From Leucothrix mucor DSM 2157 (GTDB lineage: Bacteria; Pseudomonadota; Gammaproteobacteria; Thiotrichales; Thiotrichaceae): a stretch of DNA of 64,000 nt. Of this stretch, positions 19,226 to 28,494 are shown in pieces. The stretch spans positions 930,001 through 994,000 of the forward strand of contig NZ_ATTE01000001.1 of NCBI RefSeq assembly GCF_000419525.1, written 5' to 3'. The notes beneath the pieces are model-generated. The model worked only from the letters and a program-made list of their open reading frames with translations. It was not told the origin of the DNA and did no database searches. Position 1 is the first letter of the stretch. Every line of letters starts with the position of its first letter. The position numbers were made by a program, and so were the translations under genes.

Positions 19226-19294
19226 GGCCAATTATTCCATTAAACAAGCGCCTTACGACGTAGGAGTTGAAGCGTTTTCATGGAACAATTGGCC
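19226..19294. repeat. 69-bp palindromic repeat, copy A
   Basis: The 15-base arms GGCCAATTATTCCAT and ATGGAACAATTGGCC enclose a 39-base core shared with copies B and C. One arm pair is mismatched here; on the minus strand it would be G-U. Within the core, AAAC/GTTT extends the stem and CCTT..TAGG forms the tip (the other copies have a perfect CCTT/AAGG). It lies between a terminator and the osmoprotectant operon promoter. Confidence 0.85.
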
Positions 19295-19314
19295 GCCCCC
19301 AAAAACCTTATGAT

Positions 19315-19342
19315 TTGCTAACTGTCCTAAAACACTTAAAAT
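19315..19342 (+). promoter_or_regulatory. Putative promoter of the osmoprotectant operon
   Basis: TTGCTA (19315-19320) and TAAAAT (19337-19342) are 16 bp apart. The start of the binding-protein gene is 63 bp further on. The match is moderate. In E. coli the equivalent operon is RpoS-dependent, but that cannot be decided here. Confidence 0.4.
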
Positions 19343-19405
19343 ATAGCAACACTAAACCCCCGTCTCATTGACAACCAACCGACATCACACAGGAAGTACC
19401 CAATC

Positions 19406-20314
19406 ATGAACATCAAACGTGCTTTTGCCGCTGCTAGTATCAGTTTTGCACTCACCGGCGTCGCGCAGGCCGACATTGTGGTCTCGTCCAAGATCGACAC
19501 CGAAGGCGGCTTGCTTGGCAATGTCATCGCGCTTGCCTTAGAGGATGCCGGCTTACCCGTAGAGCGTCGCTTGCAGCTGGGCGGCACACAGGTTGTGCGT
19601 GAAGCTTTGCTGGCTGACCAGATTGACATTTATCCTGAATACACTGGCAATGCGGCGTTCTTCTTTAATGAAGCCGATAGCCCAATCTGGAAAGACGCCA
19701 AAGCCGCTTATGAGCGCGCTGCGGAGTTGGACGCTGAGAAAAACAAACTGACATGGCTGCAATCTGCGCCTGCTAATAACACGTGGGCCATTGCCCTGAC
19801 TGGTAAAGTCGCTGAAGAAAACAAGCTGACCACCATGTCCGAATTTGGTGCTTGGGTTGCGGGCGGTGGTGAAGTGAAGCTGGCCGCATCCACTGAATTT
19901 GTTTCCTCGCCAGCGGTACTGCCAGCGATGCAGGAAGCTTATCAGTTTAAGCTAACACCAGACCAAACCGTCGTGCTTTCAGGTGGCGATACGGCGGCAA
20001 CGATTCAGGCAGCAGCGCGCGGAACTTCCGGCGTGAACGCGGCAATGGCTTATGGTACTGACGGTGGCGTTGGGGCAACGGGCTTAGTGGTGATGGCAGA
20101 TGACAAGGGTGTGCAGCCGGTTTACGAGCCTGCGCCAGTGGTTCGCGATGCGGTATTAAAAGAATACCCTTCAATTGCTGAAGTGCTGAATCCGATTTTC
20201 GCTGAGCTGGATATGGCGACGCTGCAAAAGCTGAATGGCCGCATCCAAGTCGGTGGCGAACCCGCTGAAGCCGTGGCTCGCGATTACCTCACTCAAACTG
20301 GCGTGCTGGACTAA
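19406..20314 (+). CDS. osmF: Osmoprotectant (quaternary amine) ABC transporter binding protein, OsmF/YehZ-like
   Basis: The 302-residue periplasmic protein has a signal peptide cut near VAQA. The mature start IVVSSKIDTEGGLLGNVIAL and the motif DIYPEYTGNAAFFF are typical of the OpuBC/ProX-like glycine betaine or choline binding family. WLQSAPANNTWAIAL gives aromatic residues for the ligand cage. The ATG follows AGGAAG. It is the first of four genes in the order yehZ, yehY, yehX, yehW, identical to E. coli. The exact substrate (glycine betaine, choline or a related amine) is not readable. Confidence 0.9.
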   Translation: MNIKRAFAAASISFALTGVAQADIVVSSKIDTEGGLLGNVIALALEDAGLPVERRLQLGGTQVVREALLADQIDIYPEYTGNAAFFFNEADSPIWKDAKAAYERAAELDAEKNKLTWLQSAPANNTWAIALTGKVAEENKLTTMSEFGAWVAGGGEVKLAASTEFVSSPAVLPAMQEAYQFKLTPDQTVVLSGGDTAATIQAAARGTSGVNAAMAYGTDGGVGATGLVVMADDKGVQPVYEPAPVVRDAVLKEYPSIAEVLNPIFAELDMATLQKLNGRIQVGGEPAEAVARDYLTQTGVLD

Positions 20315-20325
20315 TCGCGGCGCTA

Positions 20326-21498
20326 ATGCCGGTGCGCGCCGCAGGTCCTCGTGTATCCGCGCCGGGCCTGTTGCTCGCACTGCTTGGATTTGCGGCGCTG
20401 CTTGCGCCGTTTATGACGCTGGCAGCCAATCGCATCGTTGCGGGTGAGGGCATCACCGCTTGGCAACTTGCAGGGCCGGAGGTGACATTACCTGGCTTGA
20501 CTGCGATTGTGGCCGGTTTGGTTCTTGGGATCTTTGCTGCATGGCCGCGTGTGCGGTTGGTGGGTGCAGCCTTGGGGTTGGCTGGTTTGGTTTGGCTGCT
20601 TTCCCAGAGCGCGCCGCAGCTATTGGAGGGAGCAGGGAGTTATGCTCGGGTTTCTCCAGGCTTAGGCTTTTGGTGCCTGTTAGCCGTTCTGATTTTGCTG
20701 ATGGCTGATGCTTTGACTAGCTTGTCACCGGGGCCATTTGCACGGATTGGTTTATTGCTGGCGATGCTGAGTTTGCTCGCCATTGTGCTTGGCTCTGGTC
20801 TGCTTTCCGATCTTTCAATCATGCAGGAATATGCCAGTCGCAAAGCCGCTTTTGGTGATGCTGCGCTGCGCCACCTTAGTCTTGCCTTCGGCTCTTTAGC
20901 GGCGGCAACTGTTATTGGTATTCCGCTTGGCATTCTCTGTTACCACGGCGAGAGGCTGCGCAAAATAGCACTTCCCGTGCTGAGCTTCCTGCAAACCATT
21001 CCATCGCTGGCGATGTTCGGCATTATGATTCCTTTGCTGGGTTGGGTTGCAAATACTTATACGGCGGCCAAGGCGATGGGAATTGCTGGAGTAGGTTTTG
21101 CCCCAGCCTTTCTAGCTTTATTGCTCTATTCACTGTTACCCGTTGTGGCGAATATGGTGGCCGGATTACAAAGCGCGCCTGAGAAAGCTCGCGATGCCGC
21201 GCGCGGAATGGGAATGACTGTATGGCAGCGGCTGATCCATGTTGAATTGCCGCTGGGTTTGCCGATGATTCTTGCTGGATTGCGCATCGCCTTGGTGCAA
21301 AATATCGGGCTGGTGGTGATCGCCGGATTAATTGGTGGTGGCGGCTTTGGCTCCTTTGTGTTTCAAGGGCTCAACCAGACAGCCACCGACCTGATACTAC
21401 TGGGCGCATTGCCCACCGTAGCGCTGGCTCTAACCGCCGCAATTCTTATGGATGTACTGGTCGAACTGACCAAACCGACATCAAGGAAAGCCTCATGA
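20326..21498 (+). CDS. yehY: Osmoprotectant ABC transporter permease, YehY-like
   Basis: This 390-residue inner-membrane protein has an N-terminal block of about four to five extra membrane helices. A BPD permease domain follows (about residues 180-385), with the ATPase contact loop around AARGMGMTVWQRLIHVELPL. The long N-terminal extension is characteristic of YehY and absent in YehW. It begins 11 bp after the binding-protein stop and its stop overlaps the ATPase start by four bases, so the operon is translationally coupled. Confidence 0.92.
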   Translation: MPVRAAGPRVSAPGLLLALLGFAALLAPFMTLAANRIVAGEGITAWQLAGPEVTLPGLTAIVAGLVLGIFAAWPRVRLVGAALGLAGLVWLLSQSAPQLLEGAGSYARVSPGLGFWCLLAVLILLMADALTSLSPGPFARIGLLLAMLSLLAIVLGSGLLSDLSIMQEYASRKAAFGDAALRHLSLAFGSLAAATVIGIPLGILCYHGERLRKIALPVLSFLQTIPSLAMFGIMIPLLGWVANTYTAAKAMGIAGVGFAPAFLALLLYSLLPVVANMVAGLQSAPEKARDAARGMGMTVWQRLIHVELPLGLPMILAGLRIALVQNIGLVVIAGLIGGGGFGSFVFQGLNQTATDLILLGALPTVALALTAAILMDVLVELTKPTSRKAS

Positions 21499-22430
21499 TC
21501 GAGATCGACAAGATAAGCAAACTCTATGATGGCAAGCCAGCGGTAGATGCGGTGTCGATGACGGTAGAGACGGCTTCCATTACCGTGATTGTGGGAACGT
21601 CTGGCTCAGGTAAAACGACGTTGCTACGGATGATCAATCGCTTAGTCGAGCCAAGCTCCGGCGACGTACGCATTAATGGCGAATCAATCCATGCAGTATC
21701 AAAAACGGCTTTGCGGCGGCGCATCGGCTATGCCATTCAAGGGCATGGCTTGTTTCCGCATTACACTGTCGGGCGCAATATCGGGACTGTGCCAACATTG
21801 CTAGGCTGGCCTCAGGACAAAATCAATGCACGCGTAGATGAGTTATTAGATCTGTTTTCAATGGAGCCCAGTCAATTTCGTGATCGCTATCCCGCCGAGT
21901 TATCGGGTGGTCAGCAACAACGGGTAGGAGTGGCGCGCGCACTTGCTTCGCGACCGGATCTGTTATTGATGGATGAACCCTTCGGCGCACTCGACCCCAT
22001 CATTCGGGCAAGGGCGCAGGAGGACTTACGACGCATACAACGCGCGCTCGGCTCAACCATTATGCTAGTCACACATGATATGGAAGAAGCCATTCAACTT
22101 GGCGATCGGGTAGCGGTAATGGATGCCGGGAAGCTAGTGCAATACGGCACACCCGCCGAAATTATCCAGCAGCCAGCAACCGAATTTGTAGCGAATATGG
22201 TGGGCGGCGTAGAGCGACCATTACGGCTTTTATCGTTATATCCAGTCTCTGATATTGTCGAGGAAGGAGCGGCAGACGGTGAGCCGCTGGAGGCAAATAC
22301 CAGCCTGCGTGATGCGCTGTCAATTTGCTTGTGGACGGGTAGGGAAGCACTGCCTGTGGTAAAAGAAGGCGTACTTTTAGGTCGGGTAACCTTAGATGCT
22401 ATCCGCGCCTGCGCTGAAGGTCCAAAATGA
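21495..22430 (+). CDS. yehX: Osmoprotectant ABC transporter ATP-binding protein, YehX-like
   Basis: This 311-residue protein powers the transporter. It shows Walker A GTSGSGKTT, the signature LSGGQQQR, Walker B LLLMDEPFGALD and the switch His in VTHDMEEA. After the ATPase (about residues 1-235) the C-terminal ~75 residues contain a single CBS-like segment (ALPVVKEGVLLGRVTLD). OpuA-type relatives carry two CBS domains that sense ionic strength, so regulation by ion strength may be reduced here. It overlaps both neighbours by four bases. Confidence 0.95.
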   Translation: MIEIDKISKLYDGKPAVDAVSMTVETASITVIVGTSGSGKTTLLRMINRLVEPSSGDVRINGESIHAVSKTALRRRIGYAIQGHGLFPHYTVGRNIGTVPTLLGWPQDKINARVDELLDLFSMEPSQFRDRYPAELSGGQQQRVGVARALASRPDLLLMDEPFGALDPIIRARAQEDLRRIQRALGSTIMLVTHDMEEAIQLGDRVAVMDAGKLVQYGTPAEIIQQPATEFVANMVGGVERPLRLLSLYPVSDIVEEGAADGEPLEANTSLRDALSICLWTGREALPVVKEGVLLGRVTLDAIRACAEGPK

Positions 22431-23182
22431 AGTTGGCGACAATATTTCGGGCAGCGCTGGTTGCACTGCTATTAGCACTGGTACTCAAACCGACGTGGTT
22501 TACCTGGGTTTTTGCACCCTTTGCGCCAGTTAATGGCCCGATTATTTATGAACGGGCATCGCTGCTCTCGTTGTCGCTCAGCCATTTGGGCTTGGTAGCG
22601 CTGGCTTCCAGCGTGGCAACATTAGTCGCGGTCGCCTTAGCCATTTTAGTCACCCGTCCAGCGGGCGCGGCATTTTTACCCTTATCGCGCACCATTACGA
22701 ATATGGGGCAAACCTTTCCGCCGGTTGCCGTACTGGCATTGGCTGTACCCGCACTAGGCTTTGGCGCAGGTCCAACTTTAGTGGCACTGTTTCTCTACGG
22801 CCTGTTGCCGATCTTCGAAAACGCAATCACCGGATTCTCAACCCTACCACCTGCAACCATGGAAGCCGCCCGAGGGCTCGGCCTAAGCCGCTGGCAACGA
22901 CTTACCCGAGTCGAACTACCACTCGCCATGCCCGTTATCCTAACCGGCATCCGCCTATCCGTAGTCATCGCACTTGGCACCGCCACCATCGGCTCGACCG
23001 TCGCCGCCAGAACCTTAGGTGAAGTCATCATCGCCGGATTACTCACAAATAACACCGCCTACGTACTACAAGGCGGCCTAATCGTAGGCCTCTTCGCCGT
23101 ACTCATCTACGACAGCCTAGTCCAACTAGAAGCCAAATTAGTCCAAAAATACTCCAACTCAAATCCTCACTCAAAAACATAG
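22427..23182 (+). CDS. yehW: Osmoprotectant ABC transporter permease, YehW-like
   Basis: This 251-residue inner-membrane protein has about six membrane helices and the permease contact loop AARGLGLSRWQRLTRVELPL. It completes the YehZYXW set, with two different permeases forming the channel. From about 22,800 to the stop the coding strand becomes very C-rich and G-poor, unlike the first half of the gene; see the findings. The reading frame is intact and the protein looks normal throughout. Confidence 0.92.
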   Translation: MKLATIFRAALVALLLALVLKPTWFTWVFAPFAPVNGPIIYERASLLSLSLSHLGLVALASSVATLVAVALAILVTRPAGAAFLPLSRTITNMGQTFPPVAVLALAVPALGFGAGPTLVALFLYGLLPIFENAITGFSTLPPATMEAARGLGLSRWQRLTRVELPLAMPVILTGIRLSVVIALGTATIGSTVAARTLGEVIIAGLLTNNTAYVLQGGLIVGLFAVLIYDSLVQLEAKLVQKYSNSNPHSKT

Positions 23183-23206
23183 AACCACCTAACCACCTAA
23201 CCACCC
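23183..23206 (+). repeat. Three tandem 8-mers directly after the yehW stop
   Basis: AACCACCT, AACCACCT and AACCACCC follow each other starting at the first base after the stop codon. The G-free tract sits in the C-rich zone before repeat copy B. Confidence 0.8.
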
Positions 23207-23222
23207 GCCATCCACATCACAA

Positions 23223-23291
23223 GGTCAATGATTCCATTAAACAAGCGCCTTACGACGAAGGAGTCGAAGCGTTTTCATGGAAACATTGGCC
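23223..23291. repeat. 69-bp palindromic repeat, copy B
   Basis: The arms are GGTCAATGATTCCAT and ATGGAAACATTGGCC. Compared with copy A, the eighth arm base changed T to G, and its partner changed A to C, keeping the pair. The third base T pairs with G as a wobble. The 39-base core differs from copy C at one base. It ends 10 bp before the stop codon of the convergent secreted-protein gene and 40 bp after yehW, where a terminator would be expected. Confidence 0.85.
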
Positions 23292-23301
23292 GCCCCAATA
23301 A

Positions 23302-26300
23302 CTACCGATCAATCACAACCTGATAACTCACAATCCCCTGCTGCCCACCCAGTAACGTCCCACTAAACTGCCACTGAATCCCCGCCCCACTAACCACCGG
23401 ATTACAACTCAAACTAGTCGGCGTACTCACACAAGCCGCCGAGCCACTGCTCAACTCCGTCATCACCGGCACTGAGTCATTAATCACCAAATCGTTAATC
23501 GCCCCACGGCCCGTATTTCGATAATGAATACGATAGCGCAAAGTCTCACCCGGCAGGGCAGTATTCAGTGTTTCCGTTTCAGGTGATCCCTGAGTCAAAT
23601 TCTGTACCTTCTTCACCAGTTTAAGACGCGATGCACCAACACTATTATCCGCAACCGCCGCTTGTTGCGCAGTGGTTATATCACGCACGGTCAACATTTG
23701 ACTGCCAGATAAACTATTCCCAGCATCAAACATCGCTGTCAGCGTTTGCAGGTATTGATCACCCGCTGGCGTATTGGCAGGCGCGAACACTTTATTAATC
23801 ACGCAGACCGGAACACCACCACTCACGGCGATTGGATTACTCAACGCCACACTGACTTCATTATCATTCAAAGTCCCACTACAATCGGCATCGAGATACA
23901 GCAAGCTCGACCATGCCGTATTGGTATTGCTTTGGGTAATACTGACATTGCCACTTAATGCGCTGCTAAAGCGGTGCGCATAAAAGGCCACATTGCCTGG
24001 CAGTATTTGCCCCTGATGGTCTGGCTCAAAGCGTACCGGACTAATATCACCAAAGTTTTGATTGGCAATTGATTCGCCGGCACTAAGTGTGAAAATAGTC
24101 CCAGCATTGAGGCTGGTTGAGCGATAGTTTGCAGGGTCTCTGGCAAATTCCACACCACAGTTTTTCGGGACAGGAGCTGTTTCATTGGCCGCTTCATAGA
24201 CTTGGTAGGAGCCAGCGTCTAACCCACTAAATCGGTATTCACCGCTACCGGTTGTTTGGGTGCTGACACAGGCGAGCGTATCGGTATTTAGTAGCACGAC
24301 GGTCACGCTGCCGATTCCCGACTCACCGGAGTCATAGCTCGCGTTGCTATTATCGTCATGATAAACGCGGCCGCTCACGCTCATTTTTCCGCTAATGGTA
24401 ATCGGATAATCCTCAACTTCACCGTCACGTTTTTCACCGCTAGGCTCTTCATTGCTTAAGCCTTTGCTGGTCAGTCGTAAGCGCAGGTGAGTATTGCCGG
24501 ACTGGCTATCCAATGGAATATCTGACCATTGCAAGGTGAGGTTAGCGCTATTAGTGCCATTGGCAATTTGCCTAATCGCCGCTTCATCGGGTTCGAAAAT
24601 GCCGTTTTGGTCGAAGTCGATCCAGCCAATTAATGTAGCCGCCGTGCCGCTTAAATTGGTGACATTGCTTGTTACACGGTATATGCGATCGGTTTCTTTC
24701 AGTGGCGAAAAGCTGCTGATACTGTCTTCGTCGTCGGTACCGGAGTTGTCATCGCCATCGCTATCGGGGCTGTATTGGCTGGCGGCTTCCTCATCAATGC
24801 TAGCGCCAAGTCGTAAGCTGGGAATGAGTGGGCCAACGTGGTGAGCGATGCCGTAACTGGCAGGCGCATCACCGAAGTCATTGAGAAAATCACAGTCTCT
24901 AACGGTCATATTATCAATGTAATAATCATTCCCTGTTTTCTCGTTGTTTACCGATGAAAGCACGATATCGGCACTGCTTGATGCGCCATTGGTAAAGGTA
25001 AATGAGTGAAGCTGCCAAGGCAGTGCCGAATTATCAGCGAGCAGCGGGCCAGTGGTGTACAGGATGTTGCCATCAACGGAGACGGTAATCTCATTGGGAT
25101 TGCCCGCGCGCTCAGAGTTAGCCGCCCAGAAGGAGTATTCGTATTGCGCAAAGGGCGTAAGCCCACTGAGTGTGAGGCTGATCTTCGTGGGATTGCCATC
25201 CGGATCAGCAACAAAAAAGCGTCCGGTCATGCCATATACAGGATCAACTACCGGCTCATGTTGTGAGGTATTTCTGGCGATGACTACATTGGAGACATAG
25301 GCGAATTGCCCGTGTAGGGGCGCGCCATCTGGGTTGTTGGTACTGCGCGACTGATATTGCCCATAAGTGCTGCCCGTCACCGCGCCAAGGTACGGATCGG
25401 TAGCAGGAGATTGCCCCGGATTGCCGTTTTCGGTGCCGAAGCTACCGGCATCAAACTGTGTGATTAAGTTATCGCTGCCTATCGCGCCACCTTCAGCAAC
25501 ACAGGCGCCGTTCGGTGGCTCGCTCATGGTTTGCTTGGCAATGCTCAGGATATAATCTTCAACTTCACCGTCGATTGCCGAGCCGGTAGCCGATGCGACT
25601 TCATTGGCATCGCTGGCGGTTCTTACGCGTACATAAGTCAGCGAAGGCATTAGCCCGATTAGGTTTGACCATTCCAGCGTGGCAACCCCGGCACCACAAG
25701 TGATGGGGTGATTATTGTTTTGTTCTGAGTCATCAAAAATGCCGTTATTATTAAAGTCGATCCAAGCGGTAACTGTACTGCTGACGCCTGAGCAGCTGAC
25801 ATCGACACTGTATTCTGTGCTGCTATCGAGTAGAACAGGGAAGTCAGCGACTCCATCTTCATCGTCGCTGCCGAGTGAGTCATCACCGTCGGCATTAATC
25901 TCTGACGGGCTGCTGGTTTCGGCATCGGGTGGCGTGCTGCCTAGGTAGACACTGCCGCCAATGGCGTGGCGGGCATGTCCGTAGCCGGTGTTTGCGGTTG
26001 GCGCATCGCCCCAATCTTCCTCTTGGCATAAGGCTGCTGAAATCGCGTAGTCATTTTCGAAGCGGTCACTGTTTGTGGTGGAAATTCGCAATTGGCTAGC
26101 CGCTTGCTGTGATTGCCAGATAAAGGCTTGGCTTTGGACGCTCGCAGCAGGGCCAGCTTCGACGTGGTAATCCAGTTGTCCGGTAGCCTGAACGGCTCCA
26201 TAAAAATAGCCACTCGGTGCGGTGTTTATTGGGCTGTAGAGCGAGCCATCTAAAGCGCTAAAGCCATCAATCTTGCCATCGCCGCTCAGCGTTGCCGCGT

Positions 26301-28176
26301 GTTCTACTCGTAAGTAGAGAGGGTAGTTTGGACTGCTAAATGTCCAGTCAGCGGCTTGCGATTGTGAGGTGGTAAAGCGATTGCTGCGAATAGCCGCATT
26401 GCTCAAATTTAGACTGATCACGCCGTTTGATAAGCCAAATAAGCTGCTGACGTCATAGCTGCCAGAGATATTATTTTGGCTGGCAGTATCGGACAGGCCT
26501 AAGTCTGCCGGTCGGATATCGATATAGCTGACCGCGCTACAACCGGGGAATTCAGCTTGGTCATTATTGTTAAAGGTACAGCTGACGTTGTCGCCATCGC
26601 TTAAGGTAAGTTGATCGCCAACTAAGGTGCCGCCGGTGCAACTGATACTGGTGCGCAAGTAATCGCTAGGGCCAAGCTCCGATAAGGTGTAAGTGCCGGT
26701 GCTAACCACCGCATTGGTGATGCTGTCATCGCCAGTAATGCCACTGTAGGTTTGGTTGGTGCCAATGGCGCGTAGTGTCCAGTCTGAGGGTAGGGCATTG
26801 CCGCCATTATCATTGCTGACGTTTTTAATCAGCGTTAAGAATACGGGTGGAAAAACAGTCACCAGATAATCTTCGGCTTCACCATCGCTAGCCTCGCCAG
26901 TTTGAGCGACATTGCGGTCAGTCGACCATCGAAAGCGAGCGCTGGTTTGAGTGGTTTGTGCGGTTTCAGGTACGGTGATGGCAAGCTCTATCGTGCCATT
27001 GTTATCGGTATCCTGAATATTGCTGGCGATGCGCTCGGCGGTATCAAATACGCCATTGGCATTCCAATCTATCCATGCTTGCAGGTATCCAGAAGCGCCA
27101 TTAACGGTCACGCTAATAGTAGCCGCTTGGCCTCGAACTAAGGTCGGAAAGCTAACACCATCTTCATCATCGCCACCATCATTATCATCGCCCAAGCCAT
27201 CAACGCTGCCGTTATTAGAGTTCTTGGGTGAGCTATCGATATCCGGCTTGGTAGTCCCTAAATAGACAGTGGGAATGGCGGCAACGCGGTGTGGTGAGTC
27301 GCCATAGCTGGGCGCGGCATCACCATAATCCAGTAGCGGTAATAGGGCCGGGCCACGGCAGCTCAAACCATCATTGGTGCCGCCTTCATCGATCGGGCTG
27401 GTGGCGATATAAGTGGCTTCACCGGTGCCTGAGCCAAGCACGCCCGCATCGATAATAAATAGGTTATTAGTACCATTATCGTAGGCGTAAAAATAACCAT
27501 CTTCATCGAACCATTGAGCACCATAGCTGCCGGTGAGGTTTGAACCGCCAAAGTAGGTGGTGGCTCCGGTATCGACATCAAAGTAAAAGACCCGATCAGT
27601 TCTTGAGTCAACGGCATACATTTTGCCATCAACAGGATTGAGGGCCATATCGACATAAGAGGCATTAGATGCAGGGCCGGTCAGATTAAAGGATGAGTTG
27701 ATGGTATAAGGCTCGCTGGTGAGATCCAGCGTCATAATGGTGCCTTTGTTGTTCTTAAAGATCATCGTACCATCGGGCAAAATATCGCCCGCGTTACTGC
27801 CTTTGGTATTGCCCATTCCGGCTACCGTACCTAGGTTGGTAAAGGTGCCGTCACCATCGACTACAAATAAATCTTGAGTACCGCTACGGATACCATAGCC
27901 TAAGCTATCAATGACGTTATAACCCCAGCCGCCATTAATTTTCATACCGGCACTGGAGCCAACATCAATAAATTCGGCGGTAGTGCCCGTGACACTAATC
28001 CGAATGAGTTGGGAGTCTTGGCGAGCAATTTGATAGACCGGAGACTCGCACACAAATGCCTTAGCATTAGCCGGAGGCCCTGCCAAACTAGCGGTTGAGA
28101 GGAGGACTAGCAGTAAGCCAAGCCAGCAAATCAGAGCGCGACGAAGCCTTGAGAGTTCTATTATTGTTATTTGCAT
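23302..28176 (-). CDS. Large secreted multidomain protein with three GEVED repeats and SdrD-like B domain
   Basis: The protein has 1624 residues. A signal peptide (about 1-37) is followed by a DUF6923-like repeat region with beta-propeller look (about 40-275). Three ~150-residue units each start with DYGDA/DWGDA/DFGDA and end in DGEAEDY, DGEVEDY or DGEVEDY (ends near 432, 870 and 1253). Each holds an Asp-rich DGDD..DEDG loop and WIDxNxNGxF, which suggest calcium binding. A prealbumin-like domain follows the first unit. An SdrD-type B domain (GRVYHDDNSNASYDSGESG) begins near 1258, and a DUF11-like segment ends the protein. No membrane anchor, sorting motif or autotransporter domain is visible at the C-terminus. 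It is probably a surface or matrix protein; its export route is unknown. Confidence 0.85.
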   Translation of the reverse strand: MQITIIELSRLRRALICWLGLLLVLLSTASLAGPPANAKAFVCESPVYQIARQDSQLIRISVTGTTAEFIDVGSSAGMKINGGWGYNVIDSLGYGIRSGTQDLFVVDGDGTFTNLGTVAGMGNTKGSNAGDILPDGTMIFKNNKGTIMTLDLTSEPYTINSSFNLTGPASNASYVDMALNPVDGKMYAVDSRTDRVFYFDVDTGATTYFGGSNLTGSYGAQWFDEDGYFYAYDNGTNNLFIIDAGVLGSGTGEATYIATSPIDEGGTNDGLSCRGPALLPLLDYGDAAPSYGDSPHRVAAIPTVYLGTTKPDIDSSPKNSNNGSVDGLGDDNDGGDDEDGVSFPTLVRGQAATISVTVNGASGYLQAWIDWNANGVFDTAERIASNIQDTDNNGTIELAITVPETAQTTQTSARFRWSTDRNVAQTGEASDGEAEDYLVTVFPPVFLTLIKNVSNDNGGNALPSDWTLRAIGTNQTYSGITGDDSITNAVVSTGTYTLSELGPSDYLRTSISCTGGTLVGDQLTLSDGDNVSCTFNNNDQAEFPGCSAVSYIDIRPADLGLSDTASQNNISGSYDVSSLFGLSNGVISLNLSNAAIRSNRFTTSQSQAADWTFSSPNYPLYLRVEHAATLSGDGKIDGFSALDGSLYSPINTAPSGYFYGAVQATGQLDYHVEAGPAASVQSQAFIWQSQQAASQLRISTTNSDRFENDYAISAALCQEEDWGDAPTANTGYGHARHAIGGSVYLGSTPPDAETSSPSEINADGDDSLGSDDEDGVADFPVLLDSSTEYSVDVSCSGVSSTVTAWIDFNNNGIFDDSEQNNNHPITCGAGVATLEWSNLIGLMPSLTYVRVRTASDANEVASATGSAIDGEVEDYILSIAKQTMSEPPNGACVAEGGAIGSDNLITQFDAGSFGTENGNPGQSPATDPYLGAVTGSTYGQYQSRSTNNPDGAPLHGQFAYVSNVVIARNTSQHEPVVDPVYGMTGRFFVADPDGNPTKISLTLSGLTPFAQYEYSFWAANSERAGNPNEITVSVDGNILYTTGPLLADNSALPWQLHSFTFTNGASSSADIVLSSVNNEKTGNDYYIDNMTVRDCDFLNDFGDAPASYGIAHHVGPLIPSLRLGASIDEEAASQYSPDSDGDDNSGTDDEDSISSFSPLKETDRIYRVTSNVTNLSGTAATLIGWIDFDQNGIFEPDEAAIRQIANGTNSANLTLQWSDIPLDSQSGNTHLRLRLTSKGLSNEEPSGEKRDGEVEDYPITISGKMSVSGRVYHDDNSNASYDSGESGIGSVTVVLLNTDTLACVSTQTTGSGEYRFSGLDAGSYQVYEAANETAPVPKNCGVEFARDPANYRSTSLNAGTIFTLSAGESIANQNFGDISPVRFEPDHQGQILPGNVAFYAHRFSSALSGNVSITQSNTNTAWSSLLYLDADCSGTLNDNEVSVALSNPIAVSGGVPVCVINKVFAPANTPAGDQYLQTLTAMFDAGNSLSGSQMLTVRDITTAQQAAVADNSVGASRLKLVKKVQNLTQGSPETETLNTALPGETLRYRIHYRNTGRGAINDLVINDSVPVMTELSSGSAACVSTPTSLSCNPVVSGAGIQWQFSGTLLGGQQGIVSYQVVIDR

Positions 28177-28425
28177 ATCACTCTTATCGTTGGTGAGTCG
28201 TGATTATTTTGTAGGCCTAAGCCATTTTAACCAAGCATGACTACGTTGACATTTTATGAGCAAGATTTTCTAGCAAGGCTCCTCTGACCCTAACACGGCA
28301 GGAATGAATGCTTGTTGAATGCCAATTATCACGCACTAGTCCTTAAATATTTTCAGTGTAAATTTCCGACTAAAGCGTTATAAATGATTTACGTACTTCG
28401 AAAATGCTACCTCATCATCCAACAA
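28177..28425. other. Intergenic region upstream of the large secreted protein
   Basis: Together with repeat copy C and 30 more bases this makes a 348-bp gap between two divergent genes. It should hold both promoters. I see no convincing promoter pair, RNA gene or ORF here. Confidence 0.5.
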
Positions 28426-28494
28426 GGCTAATTATTCCATTAAACAAGCGCCTTACGACGAAGGAGTTGAAGCGTTTTCATGGAATAATTAGCC
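28426..28494. repeat. 69-bp palindromic repeat, copy C
   Basis: The arms GGCTAATTATTCCAT and ATGGAATAATTAGCC are perfectly complementary over 15 bases. Relative to copy A, the fourth base changed C to T and its partner G to A, a compensatory change. The core carries CCTT-ACGACG-AAGG as a perfect small hairpin. It ends 30 bp before the ATG of the Gfo/Idh/MocA gene, so it would lie in that gene's 5' leader. Confidence 0.85.

Follow-up and report, generated by a model that had tools for sequence, protein, structure and literature searches.

Hairpin repeats with a near-constant head and variable paired arms between the genes of Leucothrix

In attC sites the conserved boxes lie at the base of the stem and the tip is variable. 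The REP, REPIN and BIME sequences are short extragenic palindromes that often occur as inverted pairs; small families of them exist, and the REP families with a CGTC tag are without an associated transposase (PMC3733652, in excerpt). Palindromic elements derived from IS200/IS605 (PATEs) are mentioned in the genome paper of Thiomargarita, a more distant relative of the organism treated here (PMC4853749, in excerpt). The repeats described below, from Leucothrix, are likewise short extragenic palindromes, often in inverted pairs, and they resemble MITEs and PATEs in being small, intergenic, palindromic, dispersed and non-autonomous. With attC sites they share imperfect hairpins placed behind stop codons with a polarity, and an apical extension in the members of some genomes. 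With intrinsic terminators they share a strong hairpin a few bases after stop codons, at places where some relatives have a plain hairpin. They apparently represent a new, undescribed hairpin family of one genus of filamentous marine bacteria, with a lifestyle of the REP or MITE kind that is already known. The first-pass annotation had called the repeat undescribed, and this agrees with what was found: searches of open-licence papers brought up no description of such a repeat, and the excerpts of PMC4853749 and PMC5728499 describe no Leucothrix repeat. Rfam at its gathering score gave no match in the whole window, and in eight element-bearing loci it gave one FMN riboswitch and two tRNAs, none of them at an element.

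The window is a stretch of 64,000 nt of Leucothrix mucor DSM 2157 (G000:C1:930001-994000), whose genome comprises 5.19 Mb in two contigs. This genome is one of seven Leucothrix genomes in the sample, G000 to G006, of which G003 is L. pacifica. Three copies of a 69-bp repeat, A, B and C, are present where the first-pass annotation had placed them, and all three lie between open reading frames, as it had said (Table 1). They form the sole direct-repeat family with more than two copies in the window at the settings used, and the likeness among them is confined to the unit plus a few bases. Their core pattern, with at most three mismatches, occurs three times in the window and in none of 100 shuffles. 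The folding z-scores on the plus strand are -5.34 for A, -5.12 for B and -7.51 for C, and no shuffle among 200 for each copy folded as well. All three are palindromic, but the 15-base complementary arms ascribed to them are perfect only in C (15/15) and imperfect in A and B. The two-sided arm changes reported among them, T-A to G-C in B and C-G to T-A in C, are both seen in the alignment. A and C stand in front of genes. A lies between a 123-aa ORF and an OpuAC gene, about 110 nt ahead of the latter, which belongs to an ABC operon of four genes and of glycine-betaine type; C is about 29 nt ahead of a GFO/IDH/MocA oxidoreductase gene. B lies between two convergent 3′ ends, the nearest being that of a 1624-aa minus-strand gene, to which it is antisense.

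Table 1. Family-1 copies in the window and their head cores (window coordinates)
Feature	Position	Strand	Remarks
Copy A, family 1	19226..19294	+	15-bp arms around head, one A.C mismatch
Head core of copy A	19248..19277	+	T variant at the GNA triloop
Copy B, family 1	23223..23291	+	Arms with one T.G pair and one A.A mismatch
Conserved head core of copy B	23245..23274	+	
Copy C, family 1	28426..28494	+	Perfect 15-bp arms
Conserved head core of copy C	28448..28477	+	

The copies are not tied to this locus alone. Family 1, to which A, B and C belong, occupies 11 places in G000, whether these are sought by the core pattern with at most three mismatches or by a covariance model, R2, built from 12 members. 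Across 63 genomes of the bacterial family the pattern matched 11 times in G000, twice in G003 and not at all in the other 61, and its reversed control had no match. In a collection with one genome per species, which may lack G000, the exact core pattern matched only two stretches of L. pacifica. The family-1 core pattern was not found in viral contigs. The search of relatives with R2 gave counts of 11 in G000, 8 in G001, 6 in G003, 5 in G004, 3 in G005, 1 in G006 and 0 in G002; there was no match in 56 other genomes of the bacterial family. Distant BLAST searches gave no result, either for copy C among plasmids or for a family-2 element among phages.

A longer sister family, family 2, with long arms around the head CGCAGTCCTTACGAGCAAAGCGAGTCGGCGAAG, came to light when 400 kb of G000, the window and sampled DNA from relatives were surveyed for long hairpins. 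Among the same 63 genomes its pattern was found 16 times in G000, five times in G006, five times in G003, once in G001 and in none of the other 59, with one match for the reversed control, in G052. The covariance model of this family, R1, gave 23 rows in G000, equal to 22 places (one was read on both strands, and one is partial), with 15 in G003, 11 in G006, 7 in G005, 4 in G001, 3 in G004 and 0 in G002. Beyond Leucothrix it gave weak matches in G025 (one) and G097 (two), which belong to another genus; the remaining 54 had none. When 369 genomes sampled across the class were scanned, one look-alike, whose stem measures about 27 bp and whose apex is ACGAGCAAAGCGAGT, was added from G306. Absences in this sample are weak because the scan was limited to 12 candidates per genome and found again 12 of the 23 R1 rows known from G000. 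Both families are present in six of the seven Leucothrix genomes, and elsewhere only four weak look-alikes, in three genomes, were seen.

The unit of about 69–115 nt combines a near-constant, asymmetric head with long variable arms. Read inward, the proposed structure begins with the variable arms and an internal loop that is asymmetric; a short stem, which is conserved, and a bulge of three bases (CTT) come next, and the apical stem, containing tandem G.A/A.G, leads to a triloop, which is GNA in family 1 and AAA, GNA or others in family 2. The apical pairs of family 1 covary at columns 34-46 (C-G or A-T) and 38-42 (C-G or G-C), and the five G006 members of A2, in family 2, have G-C/C-G at the G.A/A.G positions. 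The inner head helices of family 2 have no two-sided covariation among 22 sequences, which counts against the proposed head, and 4 of the 22 rows do not pair at head columns 36-50. In G001, G004 and G005 the tip of several members is about 30 bases longer, through a variable apical extension. Most arms measure 15–25 bp in a survey of 40 elements, seven of which gave arms of 0–3 pairs because the register did not fit. Among 67 rows of the family-2 model, those of the 81 R1 rows that were kept for arm identities and pair counts, mean pairwise identity is 35% at the outer 12 arm positions and 57% in the inner arm. A protein could read the near-constant head. In L. pacifica a hairpin of a third kind, whose head is different, lies behind ygiQ and behind an SBP gene.

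With respect to position, 63 family-2 elements were taken from 81 R1 matches and 14 family-1 elements from 28 R2 matches. Omitted from the R1 matches were opposite-strand readings of one place; L158, L159, L166 and L182, as lying outside Leucothrix; those in L225, L170 and L030, which fitted family 1 instead; and a partial one in L070. From the R2 matches, duplicates of one place were omitted, along with weak ones, those on the opposite strand, and L032:12714. By gene calls that are simple ORF calls, and with orthologues included so that the elements are not independent, 48 of the 63 family-2 elements lie within 60 nt of the 3′ end of a gene, and for 11 a 5′ end is no farther away than that. 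Nine of the 48 are between two 3′ ends; the other 39 have one 3′ end nearby, to whose gene 35 of them are antisense and four sense (binomial p = 3.4e-7). Seven of the 14 family-1 elements are near a 3′ end (six antisense, one between two) and five near a 5′ end. The 3′ side of family-2 elements faces the nearer gene border in 46 and the farther in 10, with one tie and six not scored. Neighbouring elements less than 500 nt apart comprise nine minus/plus, two minus/minus and no plus/minus pairs; both minus/minus pairs involve one partial match, and convergent genes explain some of the neighbours.

The flanks of A, B and C, noted earlier as CAA on the left and GCC on the right, proved to be one instance of a wider A+C-rich strand context around the family. 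The adjoining 20 bases have A+C fractions of 0.67 and 0.68 in family 2 (57 elements) and of 0.74 and 0.64 in family 1 (14 elements), whereas 133 gene 3′ flanks from a G000 sample, few of them element-bearing, show no comparable bias, G+T being 0.51 over their first 20 bases. Counts of flank tags and T runs kept 46 of 53 family-2 elements. The base before the palindrome is C in 28 of these and the base after it is T in 33; TTTT occurs in the first 8 bases after the hairpin in 9/46, and at least six T of eight in 5/46.

It is clear that the arms of further members covary, as those of the window copies had suggested. Two-sided changes are present at 14 of 15 arm pairs in family 1 (12 sequences) and at all 23 in family 2 (22 sequences), in which 91.3% of arm cells are paired. 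The covariation score of family 1 is 0.393, compared to 0.056–0.102 for slid and 0.126 for shuffled alignments, and that of family 2 is 0.625, compared to 0.061–0.122 slid and a mean of 0.141 shuffled. Orthologous elements were identified by matching flanks, on both sides in five of six family-2 pairs and on one side in L157/L176. The six pairs hold 138 arm cells, of which 87 are the same, 24 have changed on both sides and are paired, 8 contain G.T, 18 are broken in at least one member and 1 is a gap; two of the six have no two-sided change. An orthologous family-1 pair (G000 L070:11095 and G003 L137:3863) has a common inner stem and outer arms that differ on both sides, and an inverted pair of elements is retained at one place in G000 and G006 with arms much changed. 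These comparisons show, at the level of sequence, that the arms change jointly in place at orthologous sites.

Selection on RNA is expected to leave many G.U pairs and few A.C. The ratio of G.T to A.C is 11:8 among 663 pairs from 40 elements and 53:30 among 1528 pairs from 67 rows (p = 0.015; G.T makes up 3.5% of pairs). The excess of G.T is at most mild in both counts, so they do not prove selection on RNA pairing; it also lies on the strand that, in most cases, runs antisense to the gene next to it. DNA template switching makes joint multi-base changes in a single step (PMC8794818, PMC8604942, both in excerpt); it is able to create and mend hairpins (PMC8794818, in excerpt) and may also invert the spacer (PMC8604942, in excerpt). 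RNA-level selection and template switching may both act on the arms. Selection for base pairing and homogenisation of a mobile palindrome, the two causes offered in the first-pass annotation, both stand as candidates. Because the arms covary in further members, the proposal also withstood the refuting condition that had been set with it.

At several orthologous gene ends no such element was seen: those of L107 (three relatives), L018 (two), L020 (two), L101 (one) and L017 (one), by a hairpin finder set to a minimum arm of 12 together with inspection by eye. A plain or a different hairpin stands at the element's orthologous place in some relatives; at the L112 site there is an orthologous element in G006, a different hairpin in G003 and a plain hairpin in G002. 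Larger segments also differ. The window from about 18.7 to 29.6 kb, between ygiQ and a cupin gene, holds A, B and C; because ygiQ adjoins the cupin gene in L. pacifica, the segment of A, operon, B, large gene, C and oxidoreductase gene is missing at that place. A 5.4-kb block of G000 bordered by family-2 elements is not there at the corresponding place in G002. At orthologous sites no duplication of a target site could be read, and the intergenic DNA of G000 and G002 hardly aligns.

A mobilising gene was not found. In G000 a Y1 (REP-type) transposase gave no match (PF01797, E<=0.001); in G003 there are three PF01797 matches, in open frames of 149 aa. The integron integrase TIGR02249 is over cut-off in G003, G004 and G006 and not in G000, and the DNA sampled around the integrases of these three genomes holds no element. 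One G006 element lies about 0.4 kb from a gene for a 292-aa tyrosine recombinase; the DNA sampled around the two other copies of that gene holds no element.

By the marks that were examined, the Leucothrix elements fit neither REPs with a RAYT nor attC sites, and neither classical MITEs nor Rfam families. Their arms are mostly 15–25 bp and their units about 69–115 nt, compared to stems of 5–13 bp and lengths of 20–40 in REPs (PMC3733652, in excerpt), and the tip of the hairpin rather than its base is conserved. No GTAG or CGTC tag was seen at the stem ends in 46 family-2 flanks or, by eye only, in those of family 1. The view that these are not REPs with GTAG is upheld for family 2 and by the lack of a Y1 match in G000, on which a REP with RAYT was rejected. 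In contrast to MITEs and PATEs, outer arms are not conserved between copies (35%), no parent element was found in G000 and no duplication was read. The first-pass annotation had thought of a MITE; a classical one with conserved transposase-type ends was not supported, given the 35% identity of the outer arms in family 2, although the family-1 copies A, B, C and that at 2205k do have arms in common. The attC site was rejected as well: the base of the Leucothrix stem is variable, without conserved boxes, and the head is conserved; no integrase is over cut-off in G000, and in the relatives the DNA sampled around the integrases holds no element. As to the textbook terminator, a T run follows the hairpin in few members only (TTTT 9/46) and is not consistent, while the head is conserved and there is a polarity; it too was rejected.

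The best explanation, which is held with moderate confidence, is that these are Leucothrix-limited, dispersed, non-autonomous extragenic palindromic repeats that are read by their head and that, after insertion, would act mainly as mRNA 3′-end structures. The head would be read as a folded hairpin, probably in single-stranded DNA, by a putative enzyme that copies the unit to gene ends. The hairpin may then form a strong mRNA 3′-end structure, as a transcription barrier or exonuclease block, so that broken stems would be selected against; this step is the least certain. Template switching between the arms would supply many of the joint changes. On the best reading the stems are kept paired by selection for the hairpin, by template switching, or by both. 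A role at 3′ ends does not explain 11 of the 63 family-2 and 5 of the 14 family-1 elements, because these lie within 60 nt of a 5′ end. A protein-binding site or a structured RNA, both proposed at the outset, is possible.

Several other readings have to be weighed. The elements might be purely selfish, a non-autonomous remnant of a single-strand transposon (REPIN-like or IS200/IS605-derived-like) with a target preference for gene ends, arms rewritten by template switching or hairpin repair, and no host function. The largely Watson-Crick arms with few G.T (3.5% of pairs; 11/663), the multi-base differences on both sides at orthologous sites, the nine minus/plus neighbours within 500 nt and the ability of template switching to create and mend hairpins (PMC8794818, in excerpt) are all in its favor. 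Yet there is no Y1 match in G000, two species share some elements at one and the same site, and the elements largely keep their polarity although template switching can invert the spacer (PMC8604942, in excerpt); we regard this reading as a real but rather unlikely one. If the elements were instead a vertically inherited structured RNA, a terminator-like 3′-UTR hairpin whose head is bound by an RNA-binding protein and which does not move, their placing behind stop codons, their polarity, their retention at orthologous sites, the plain hairpins that some relatives have there and the mild G.T excess of 53:30 would fit. Near-copies at unrelated sites (A, B and C), orthologous ends from which the element is absent and the scarcity of T runs do not, and the G.T excess is on the wrong strand for mRNA because most elements run antisense to the gene. 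Immobility of this kind seems unlikely.

A recombination site that delimits exchangeable gene blocks, as in integron-like cassettes, is suggested by the A-to-oxidoreductase segment missing at the ygiQ/cupin place in L. pacifica, by the 5.4-kb G000 block with family-2 borders missing at that place in G002 and by the fixed position behind stop codons. It is nevertheless very improbable: the L. pacifica insert at the second hot spot differs and no element was seen at its borders, a homologue of one block gene has different neighbours in L. pacifica, element orientation is not uniform, no integron integrase is over cut-off in G000, and the DNA sampled around the true integrases of relatives holds none of the elements. 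There is also a small chance that the elements are a new class of mobile hairpin in which a putative enzyme recognises the head, folded as single-stranded DNA, and places the unit behind stop codons with fixed polarity, hairpin-templated repair then rewriting both arms at once so that the stem evolves freely, and that they sometimes delimit exchangeable gene blocks.

A double compensatory change in a stem is usually taken as proof of RNA function. The many related hairpins of Leucothrix, some of them orthologous in two species, offer a test of selection through G.U intermediates against template switching, and their drifting paired stems around a near-constant tip are natural material on how stems stay paired. 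The position rule, mostly behind a stop codon, with a polarity and an A+C-rich strand, is a starting point for tracing whichever enzyme or binding protein would read the head.

Family-2 elements, the longer sister family of dispersed hairpins, lie inside and at the borders of a 5.4-kb gene block of L. mucor (see table), and a run of GGT trinucleotides adjoins one of them. The block is absent from the corresponding place in another Leucothrix genome, G002, and L. pacifica carries a different insert at its site. In both L. mucor and L. pacifica, a short stretch with TTTACAAAA is found at each of the two borders of the insert site.

Between the 69-bp palindromic copies B and C lies a gene for a large protein of 1624 aa, predicted from its sequence to be surface-located or secreted. 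A domain search gave three GEVED stretches together with SpaA_2, DUF6923 and SdrD_B matches; at the DNA level the gene had no matches in six genomes of the genus.

Integron integrases (TIGR02249, 429-444 bits) were found in three Leucothrix genomes. One of these, G006, also has three apparent copies of a 292-aa tyrosine recombinase gene, equal in score and frame length, which is a candidate mobile element.

Features discussed in the text (G000, L. mucor; G003, L. pacifica; G004 and G006, other Leucothrix; G097, another genus; L, extracted locus with its own numbering)
Feature	Position	Remark
5.4-kb block	L070 858-6106 (G000:C1:4350858-4356106)	
GGT run	L070 ~960-1010	
1624-aa gene	window 23302-28176	
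Integron integrase	G003:C102:2293-3228	
Integron integrase	G004:C122:1524-2453	
Integron integrase	G006:C44:2496-3440	
Tyrosine recombinase	G006:C7:49855-50622	
Tyrosine recombinase	G006:C34:146501-147268	
Tyrosine recombinase	G006:C44:1368-2135	adjoins integron integrase
Third-kind hairpin	L047 3000-3069 (G003:C95)	shortly 3' of gene
Third-kind hairpin	L137 ~2260-2490 (G003:C2)	close 3' of SBP gene
Long-arm hairpin	L158 1501-1584 (G097:C4:10701-10784)	apex CGAGCAAAGCGAG

L. pacifica has hairpins of a third kind, in which a head resembling AATGCCACCTGCGGTGGGAACATTT or AATGCCATCTTCGATGGGAACATTT stands between long arms, and these possibly form an additional family. 

A hairpin with arms of ~31 bp and a related apex occurs in another genus of the same taxonomic family, which hints that long-stem hairpins constitute a wider class.
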